Shown piece by piece: positions 9,761 through 34,375 of a stretch of 38,629 bases of DNA. Numbering within the stretch: the first letter of the stretch is position 1; each line of letters starts with the position of its first letter. The translations under genes and the position numbers were made by a program. Source of the stretch: Chthonomonadaceae bacterium (lineage in GTDB: Bacteria; Armatimonadota; Chthonomonadetes; Chthonomonadales; Chthonomonadaceae); assembly GCA_025352825.1 (NCBI GenBank), contig JANXSG010000044.1, positions 1-38,629 on the forward strand. The letters are read 5' to 3'. The notes below the pieces were generated by a model that saw only the letters and a program-made list of their open reading frames with translations, did not search any database and had not been told where the DNA came from.

Positions 9761-10112
9761 CAAGCCCTCACCCCCCGGCTCCCTCTCCCGAAGCTTCGGG
9801 AGAGGGAGAGCTAGAGTAAGGGATTTACTGTATTCCTTCAAGCTTAAACTAATCCCAATCGGTTTACCACTTGGTAGGAAACAGGATACATATGATTACT
9901 ACTCCCCCTCTCCCGAAGCTTCGGGAGAGGGGGTAGGGAGGGCGGGTCAAAAGTCTTTCTGAAATTTTCGATTGAAAAAAAACGCTCTACAATGCCCATA
10001 CAAGCGATGAAGATTTTTTTGACGCTGATCTGCCATTGAAAAATAGCGACTTTTAGCCCATTTACAGTCCGAAAGAGACTTTTGACCCACCCTCCAGGGG
10101 GGTGAGGGCTTG
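9761..10112. repeat. 352-bp composite palindromic element with perfect 16-bp inverted ends
   Basis: The ends CAAGCCCTCACCCCCC (9761-9776) and GGGGGGTGAGGGCTTG (10097-10112) are exact inverted repeats. Inside are a perfect 30-nt palindrome centred on AAGCTT (9779-9808), a second perfect 30-nt palindrome with the same core (9904-9933), and an inverted pair with one mismatch, GGAGGGCGGGTCAAAAGTC (9937-9955) against 10077-10095. The left half (about 9761-9945) is paralogous to 12707-13141. No coding potential was seen. It fills most of the gap between the propeller gene and the fumarase gene. Confidence 0.8.
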
Positions 10113-12635: not shown

Positions 12636-12706
12636 CATAATGAGTAGATCTGCATAGGAGACTCTTACAAAATTTAAGCAGGCAACAGAATCGAGACATC
12701 TATTAC

Positions 12707-13141
12707 CTCAACCCCCGGCCCCCTCTCCCAGGCTGCTCGATAGCTCGCAAGGGAGAGGGGGAGCGAGAGCAAGGGATTTTCTGTATTCCTTCAAATTTAG
12801 TAACTAATGAGGTAATTACAAAAGTCATAGAGTTCACAATTTACTATTATTTTTTTTACTTAACCCCCTGTCCCCCTTCCCTGATTCCCTCGTAACTCGG
12901 AGGGAAGGGGGAATCTTGATCGTTAATTCTCCCCCTTCCCTAAAGCAAACTGCTTTATCGTTTGCGTGTGCAGGGAAGGCGCCCGGGGGTTAGGTGAAAA
13001 AAATTGACGATATTACAATAACTATCGACTTTTGCAATTACCTCTAATCTCGCATAGTTTTCCCATTTTGTGGGAAACAGCATACAAATGAATACTACTC
13101 CCCCTCTCCCGAAGCTTCAGGAGAGGGGGCCGGGGGGTGAG
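12707..13141. repeat. inverted-arm palindromic element, interrupted by a MITE
   Basis: The outer arms CTCAACCCCCGGCCCCC (12707-12723) and GGGGGCCGGGGGGTGAG (13125-13141) are inverted with one mismatch. The inner palindromes are CCCCCTCTCCC (12719-12729) against 12751-12761, and 13100-13129 around AAGCTT. Flank text such as CTGTATTCCTTCAA and GGAAACAG.ATACA.ATG is shared with the element at 9761, so the two are paralogous. Removing the 240 bases of the inserted MITE plus one target copy leaves a unit of about 195 bp, similar to the other family members. Confidence 0.75.
12809..13044. mobile_element. 236-bp MITE-like element with 18-bp terminal inverted repeats and TAAT target duplication
   Basis: The left end GAGGTAATTACAAAAGTC (12809-12826) and right end GACTTTTGCAATTACCTC (13027-13044) are inverted with one mismatch. 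Both sides are flanked by TAAT (12805-12808 and 13045-13048), a direct duplication. The interior has nested GC-rich palindromes (CCCCCTTCCCT 12872-12882 with 12901-12911; CCTTCCCT against 12972-12979) and no coding frame. The paralogous element at 9.8 kb has only one TAAT (9850-9853) at the matching place, which marks the insertion. Confidence 0.75.
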
Positions 13142-13245
13142 GACTTTGAGTGTTTCTTTTACTTTGAGACTCTTGCAATTACCTCATCTGTATTACATAT
13201 TCTTATTTTGCTTGGTACTGGCTCTACCAGGATAGGATACAACTC

Positions 13246-17004: not shown

Positions 17005-17038
17005 AGGAACTGCCCGCTTTAACAACTATTTCACACTA

Positions 17039-17200
17039 CAATAAGGATTCTACTGTTAGGAAAGAGTATTTGTTGCAGAGATTGAAAATCCCCGCCTTTA
17101 AAAACAGCCGTCTTTCAGAACAATAAGGATTCTACTGATAGGAAAGAGTTTTGTTGCAGAGATTGAAAATCCCTGCCTTTAAAAAACAGCCGTCTTTCAG
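17039..17200. repeat. two tandem copies of an 80-bp unit (82-bp period)
   Basis: Copies at 17039-17118 and 17121-17200 both start CAATAAGGATTCTACTG and end ACAGCCGTCTTTCAG, with a few substitutions and one-base indels. Read on the minus strand they give an open frame (KAGIFNLCNK...), but that is a by-product of the repeat. The sequence looks like a dispersed intergenic repeat duplicated locally; it separates the divergent DUF2252 and MgtC genes. Confidence 0.8.
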
Positions 17201-17252
17201 ATGGGAACCGATTAAAACGCATGGCGCTTGAAAGACGCTTGTTTTACTAGAA

Positions 17253-33344: not shown

Positions 33345-34142
33345 TCAGCGGGAAATCTTCTGCTTCTTTTCTGGTGGAAAGCGGAAACTGTATCTCTTGA
33401 GAACAGACTTTCCCTCCACGCTCTGCAAAAACTTAGTAAAACTCCGCGCTTCTTTTTCGTGCCGAGTGCTGCAGAGAACAGCCACACTCTGTTCAATCGG
33501 ACGATAGAGATTTACAGGGATGGGTAATTTTTTTCCCTTCCCGCTCCCCATCGATGCAGAAACAATAGCTGCTTCCGCGTTCCCTGTCTGAGCAAACTGA
33601 AATGCTTGGCGTACATTCTCACCGTAGACCAGTTTTGGCGTAATTGCCGTGTAAATTCCTGCTTTTTTCAATGCTTCGACAGCTGCTTTTCCATACGGTG
33701 CATGCTGCGGGTTCGCGATTGAAATGTGGTATATGGATTCTGAGTTGAGATCCGAAATTTTCTTGATCGAAAGTTTGCTTTCTGCTGGAATCCACACCAC
33801 CAAACTGCCTATAGCATATATTTTATCAGTATCTGATATTGTGAGCTTTTTCGAAGTTAGCTGCTGAATATAGGAGTTGCTAGCAGAAGCAAAAACATCG
33901 TATGGAGCCCCATGTTCGATCTGCTGAGTTAATTGTCCAGATGCTCCGAAAATAAGTTCTATTTTACAACCGGTCCTCCTGGTAAACAGTTCCGCAACCT
34001 CCTTGAATGCATCTGTTAAGTCCGCTGCAGCTGCTACACGAATTGATACTTTTTCCGCTCTCATCGCGCCTGCGGAAAGAGATGTCAATAGTAGGAACAA
34101 GAACAATGTAGAGGTAATTTCAAAAATCGGATTTACACGCAT
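33345..34142 (-). CDS. modA: molybdate-binding periplasmic protein
   Basis: A 265-residue solute-binding protein. A signal peptide (about 1-26) precedes VSIRVAAAADLTDAFKEVA, then IELIFGASGQLTQQIEHGAPYDVFASAS, IANPQHAPYGKAAVEALKKAG and QTGNAEAAIVSAS, all ModA hallmarks of molybdate or tungstate binding. The ATG at 34142 and its GAGGG ribosome site fall inside a MITE-like repeat (34111-34375). The first 11 or so residues (MRVNPIFEITS) are therefore partly encoded by the end of that element. TTG codons 12 and 14 codons downstream, outside the element, could be the ancestral start. Confidence 0.92.
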   Translation of the reverse strand: MRVNPIFEITSTLFLFLLLTSLSAGAMRAEKVSIRVAAAADLTDAFKEVAELFTRRTGCKIELIFGASGQLTQQIEHGAPYDVFASASNSYIQQLTSKKLTISDTDKIYAIGSLVVWIPAESKLSIKKISDLNSESIYHISIANPQHAPYGKAAVEALKKAGIYTAITPKLVYGENVRQAFQFAQTGNAEAAIVSASMGSGKGKKLPIPVNLYRPIEQSVAVLCSTRHEKEARSFTKFLQSVEGKSVLKRYSFRFPPEKKQKISR

Positions 34143-34375
34143 ATTTCAGCCCTCACCCCCTACCCCTTCTCCCAAAACACAGGAGAGGGGGTGACTTTAA
34201 ATTGTTGGTTTACAGTCTCGCATTTCGTGAGATTTATACTTATATTTAGATCAATAACTCAAATACTATTGAAAAACCGACGCCTTAGTCACCCCCTCTC
34301 CTGTTTTTGGGAGAGGGGGACGGGGTGAGGGCGTAAACGAGTTTTTAACTACTTTGAAACTTTGGCAATTACCTC
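34111..34375. mobile_element. 265-bp MITE-like element carrying the modA start region
   Basis: The left end GAGGTAATTTCAAAAATC (34111-34128) and the inverse of the right end (34375 back to 34358, GAGGTAATTGCCAAAGTT) agree at 14 of 18 positions. They match the ends of the MITE at 12809-13044. Inside is an inverted pair of about 46 bp (34149-34195 and 34288-34332) with CACCCCCTCTCCTG...GGGAGAGGGGG stems. No clean target duplication is visible, so the exact boundaries are less sure than for the 12.8-kb copy. Confidence 0.55.
34233..34262 (-). promoter_or_regulatory. possible promoter inside the MITE, reading toward modA
   Basis: On the minus strand TTGAGT (34262-34257), an 18-nt spacer and TATAAA (34238-34233) lie in the AT-rich centre of the element, about 90 nt before the modA ATG. 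Confidence 0.35.

Follow-up and report, generated by a model that had tools for sequence, protein, structure and literature searches.

The window analysed here (38,629 nucleotides) is the entire contig C297 of a 4.87-Mb, 298-contig Chthonomonadaceae assembly (G000) that is 95% complete. It carries a short non-coding element, hereafter MITE-1, within a longer palindromic double-hairpin repeat (the host repeat), together with a paralogue of that repeat that contains a second, different element, MITE-2. The features are as follows.

9761–9937, plus strand: paralogous host repeat without MITE-1, with a single TAAT at 9850–9853
9938–10094, no strand assigned: MITE-2, 157 bp, ends GAGGGYGGGTCAAAAGTC, flanks TAGG/CAGG, inserted into the paralogue's distal arm
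10095–10110, plus strand: remainder of the paralogue's arm past MITE-2, CAGGGGGGTGAGGGCT
12658–12675, plus strand: degenerate sequence that is probably the host repeat's outer left end, GAGACTCTTACAAAATTT
12706–12804, plus strand: left half of the host double-hairpin repeat
12805–12808, no strand assigned: TAAT target site duplication, left copy
12809–13044, no strand assigned: MITE-1, 236 bp, non-coding, with a double-hairpin core
12809–12826, plus strand: left terminal inverted repeat of MITE-1, GAGGTAATTACAAAAGTC
13027–13044, minus strand: right terminal inverted repeat of MITE-1, GACTTTTGCAATTACCTC, which reads GAGGTAATTGCAAAAGTC on the minus strand
13045–13048, no strand assigned: TAAT target site duplication, right copy
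13049–13141, plus strand: right half of the host double-hairpin repeat
13168–13185, minus strand: outer right end of the host repeat, a further MITE-1-type end, GACTCTTGCAATTACCTC, with one mismatch
34111–34375, no strand assigned: third MITE-1-type element, 265 bp, with a different hairpin core

The original prediction had placed an element with 18-bp inverted ends and TAAT flanks at 12809–13044, and these coordinates are right to the base. The two ends are complementary except for one A/G mismatch, and no open reading frame of at least 80 amino acids was found within the 236 bp. The element thus has the properties of a MITE: it is short (<600 bp) and transposase-less, has inverted ends and a duplication of fixed length, is present in multiple copies, and shares its ends with IS5-like relics. 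It folds far more strongly than shuffled sequences (z about −9) because its arms dictate this. No RNA family or tRNA was found in the window, and a simple scan detected no terminator-like sites. The nearest relative of the window copy, locus L002, which carries the relic-type end GAGCCTTGTTCAAAAGTCGGG, is only 86% identical, and the insertion is therefore probably not recent.

The unfilled paralogue

When the flanks of MITE-1 are joined with one TAAT removed, they align with the paralogue over 9761–9945, with small gaps that mainly reflect loop length in one hairpin. The non-palindromic middle of this alignment was scored alone, so that hairpin composition could not mislead, and reached 80, compared with a mean of 14.0 (standard deviation 2.2, maximum 26) for 2000 shuffles. 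An independent repeat search recovered the same relationship as two direct repeats, D2 (9858–9941 and 13054–13137, 85%) and D3 (9798–9846 and 12751–12799, 88%). The paralogue contains one TAAT (9850–9853) and the filled copy two, around MITE-1. The matching flanks across a single TAAT at 9761–9945, as originally proposed, are thus homologous by both alignment and repeat search, and the option that they are unrelated fails. The term ‘empty site’ is apt in that MITE-1 is absent, but the paralogue harbours a different element (9938–10094) about 90 bp further along. Beyond what had been annotated originally, the paralogue runs past 9945 to about 10110, split by that element.

Likewise missing from the earlier annotation were the terminal copy at 13168–13185 and the third end-bounded copy at 34111–34375. 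The former supplies the host repeat with an outer end of MITE-1 type, and the sub-terminal sequence of the host resembles, by eye, one of the other classes of the family (the 265-bp class described below). The host repeat is therefore probably itself an older MITE with a related end, making this a case of a MITE within a MITE, with less confidence in the left boundary, where the candidate end is weak.

The MITE-1 family and its candidate transposase

Allowing up to three mismatches, the end pattern of MITE-1 has 265 matches in the genome, compared with 17 for a reversed control. The copies are dispersed over many contigs, and other elements have the same boundaries, as the original prediction required; detailed examination in this genome covered individual loci. 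Among 67 non-redundant end pairs, defined in loci from this genome and its relatives, 27 are flanked by an exact 4-bp target duplication (1.26 expected; maximum of 6 in 5000 shuffles) and 3 by a 5-bp duplication (0.15 expected). The duplicated targets are A+T-rich. The other 40 pairs have no exact 4-bp duplication, as would result from decay, recombination or the mispairing of ends. Identity is 99% between two 222-bp copies at unrelated places and 97% between two 265-bp copies. A search of a plasmid collection with MITE-1 gave no match, and a sequence that may be a second end type, GTAATATCAAAATCGGTTGAATTC, is present in only three copies.

The same ends bound unrelated interiors, so that several core types occur with one end pair:

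about 220 bp, with a CCTAACCCCC double-hairpin core, the class to which the window copy belongs by alignment
about 265 bp, with CCCTCACCCCC cores
about 175–200 bp, with CGACGAAATGAATTTC arms
58 bp, the shortest MITE-1-type elements

In two relatives of the same order (G020 and G025), elements of 85–89 bp with GAGGTAATTGCAAAATTC ends show many exact 4-bp duplications, and MITE-1-type elements of 99 and 120 bp were found in family relatives. A 1141-bp end-bounded stretch in G025 (L088, contig C163, 1001–2141) was considered as an autonomous element and rejected; it comprises a gene resembling, by eye, a nickel/cobalt transporter between two small MITE-1-type elements, with no obvious outer duplication.

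The search for a transposase with matching terminal repeats returned IS5-like relics and relatives whose ends match or are related, but no intact copy of this group in the genome of the window, where only fragments (C213, C95, C139 and C149) were found; we therefore infer the parent from relics and relatives. In the order relatives, two broken transposase elements of ~1.4 kb were identified, one (G020, contig C7) with GAGGTAATTGCAAAAT exact at both termini and the other (G025, contig C211) with GAGGTAATTGCAAAAT at one end only, the opposite terminus reading CAGGTAATTGCAAAATT. Both copies are broken by stops, and their target duplications are not clean. With one stop rendered as X, the G025 protein matches the Pfam profiles DDE_Tnp_1 (40.1 bits, cut-off 23) and DUF772 (34.5 bits, cut-off 23.1), and scores below the NCBIfam equivalog cut-offs, with 76.5 bits for IS5_4 (cut-off 140) and 75.7 bits for IS1182 (cut-off 270). 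The C213 relic in the genome of the window retains both ends (GAGGTAATTGCAAAAGTG and GAGCCTTGTGCAAAAGTC) and is 54–68% identical to the transposase of the order relatives in its better-preserved parts, bringing the number of genomes with IS5-like relics bearing matching ends to three. More distant relatives of the transposase (36–47% identity) with GAGCCTCTTGCAAAAGTC-like ends are present in Nitrospinota, Desulfobulbaceae, Lentisphaerales and Spirochaetes, and the full-length Nitrospinota copy, at 46% identity, has AGTA on both flanks.

In the IS5 subgroup the target duplication is about 4 bp, and the duplication length in the MITE-1 family matches it. The comparison with IS5-family and IS1182-like insertion sequences (DUF772 + DDE_Tnp_1) also extends to the ends, which transposase relics and relatives carry in identical or related form (GAG....TTGCAAAAGTC); the full elements, however, are about 1.3–1.5 kb long and carry a transposase, which the window element lacks. 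The shared ends and the duplication length suggest that the IS5-like transposase lineage moved the window copy. The mobility of MITE-1 in this genome has apparently ended, or depends on a source outside the assembly, and an intact transposase gene could lie in unassembled sequence. No PF13359 (DDE_Tnp_4) match was found in the genome of the window.

Two further transposase types in this genome were tried as the engine and rejected. An intact IS4-type element with a 412-aa transposase (L110, contig C70, 1–1713) lies inside an element of the same MITE class as MITE-1; it has its own ends, merely interrupts the MITE with an imperfect ~10-bp duplication, and represents a third kind of nesting. Neither of the two Y1 (RAYT) genes is flanked by MITE-1 cores; both (L254 on contig C171 and L255 on contig C294) lie beside short GCACTAAAGTACC-containing repeats, and they look like a separate REP/RAYT system.

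Insertion and the competing explanations

We hold with high confidence that 12809–13044 is a MITE inserted via a DDE transposase into a palindromic repeat, with duplication of TAAT and with an IS5/IS1182-like source most likely acting in trans. The pre-existing palindromic host repeat would have served as the target, into which the DDE reaction would have inserted the non-autonomous MITE-1, duplicating 4 bp; the enzyme would most likely have come from an IS5/IS1182-like element sharing the 18-bp ends of MITE-1. The transposition of one non-coding element into another, as initially claimed, is borne out by the exact boundaries and target duplication, the alignment with the unfilled homologous paralogue, the hundreds of other ends that form the genome-wide family, and the IS relics with matching or related ends.

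Cut-and-paste elements are capable of precise excision, and if the ancestor of the paralogue had been filled and had lost the element together with one TAAT, the same single TAAT would remain. However, four other host-type repeats (L140, L141, L146 and L150) also have no element at the TAAT point, which makes insertion the simpler direction, and relatives of the element lie at unrelated sites, with 4-bp duplications of their own. Derivation of the paralogue by excision is therefore highly improbable, and MITE-1 is mobile under either reading. As to the enzyme, a different DDE family that shares the terminal motif by chance would be compatible with the lack of an intact parent in the genome and with the presence of IS4-type and IS1182-type transposases. 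Against this, the strongest inverted repeats flanking the IS4- and IS1182-type copies bear no relation to the MITE-1 ends, the intact IS4 on C70 does nothing more than interrupt a MITE-1 copy, and matching ends are found on the IS5-like relics, so that we regard such an origin as very unlikely.

The ends and TAAT could also be incidental to a REP/BIME-like palindromic repeat spread by homologous recombination or by a Y1 transposase rather than a DDE enzyme. In the genome, some cores of the window element's class do keep both recognisable ends, others one and others none, and two Y1 transposases are encoded. Yet Y1 transposition does not leave exact 4-bp duplications at defined 18-bp ends, and the observed excess of such duplications already contradicts this explanation; the location of the Y1 genes beside other short repeats also speaks against it. 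Moreover, at least one seemingly end-less core (L015) has decayed ends within a CATA duplication, and decay therefore explains some of the end-less cores. This account is almost certainly wrong, and insertion by a DDE transposase remains the preferred reading.

Bacterial MITEs paired with an IS are well established, for example MITEAba12 (PMC6382973) and the QMITEs of Coxiella (PMC5896051; reviewed in PMC10969869). The elements described here are likewise short, non-coding and multicopy, with IS-shared inverted ends and a target duplication, but differ in their interchangeable double-hairpin cores, with unrelated types on one end pair and some of them nested. Small repeats inside one another, annotated as repeats split by another repeat, are known from pneumococcal BOX, RUP and SPRITE elements (PMC3049150), which belong to a different bacterium and differ in ends and engine. 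The literature searched yielded no study of MITEs or IS repeats in Armatimonadota or Chthonomonadales, and the locus provides a clean, self-contained case of MITE transposition in this group, in which a single set of ends links several unrelated types of hairpin core with a transposase lineage represented in several phyla.

MITE-2 in the arms of double-hairpin repeats

MITE-2 is MITE-like and non-coding, and its ends have GAGG and CAAAAGTC in common with those of MITE-1. With MITE-1 in the host repeat and MITE-2 in the paralogue, two different MITEs hit two sister repeats at different points. A whole-genome search with the MITE-2 interior gave 40 scored matches among 55 candidates, all 93–100% identical. 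At 29 of 30 inspected loci, picked by the interior only, the element lies, by pattern, in the C-run/G-run arms of double-hairpin repeats, and the remaining copy also adjoins a C-run. An exact 4-bp duplication (CTAA, CCGG, TCGG, TTGG, CCAA, etc.) was found for 12 of the 17 copies with both flanks readable; in the window copy, three of four bases match between the flanks (TAGG/CAGG). No transposase with MITE-2 ends was found, and a search of a phage collection with MITE-2 gave no match.

The MITE-2 family thus appears to be confined to double-hairpin repeats. A tentative explanation, which we consider somewhat doubtful, is that MITE-2 is an obligate hitch-hiker whose machinery recognises the C-run/G-run arms, perhaps as an extruded cruciform, so that one repeat family would provide the only sites into which another inserts. 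REP palindromes are known targets of insertion sequences such as IS1397 (PMC1525189), which share with MITE-2 a preferred site within a dispersed palindromic repeat; those elements are autonomous, whereas MITE-2 is a non-coding element of 157 bp whose target is itself mobile or was so formerly. Overall, the locus is a hierarchical nesting of known kinds of element; its more unusual aspect is that MITE-2 appears restricted to a different repeat family. Nesting of this type (a MITE in the host repeat and MITE-2 in the host arms) is one route to large intergenic hairpin repeats, and also explains assembly breaks at such repeats.

Many contigs of the assembly end inside MITE-2 (e.g. C10, C221, C230, C233, C239 and C240), as would be expected if this highly uniform repeat interrupts the assembly. 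The 18-bp MITE-2 end GAGGGYGGGTCAAAAGTC was also found exactly in 25 viral contigs (L289–L313), compared with 0 and 1 for two controls, and the MITE-1 end had 0 matches in viral contigs. In two of these contigs that were examined, GAGGGYGGGTCAAAAGTC lies between open reading frames that look, by eye, HNH-endonuclease-like and small-terminase-like, where HK97-type phages may have cos, with no second inverted copy nearby. Elsewhere in the window, 17021–17201 contains an imperfect tandem pair of units (AACAATAAGGATTCTACTG...TTTGTTGCAGAGATTGAAAATCCC) with a spacing of about 82 bp.
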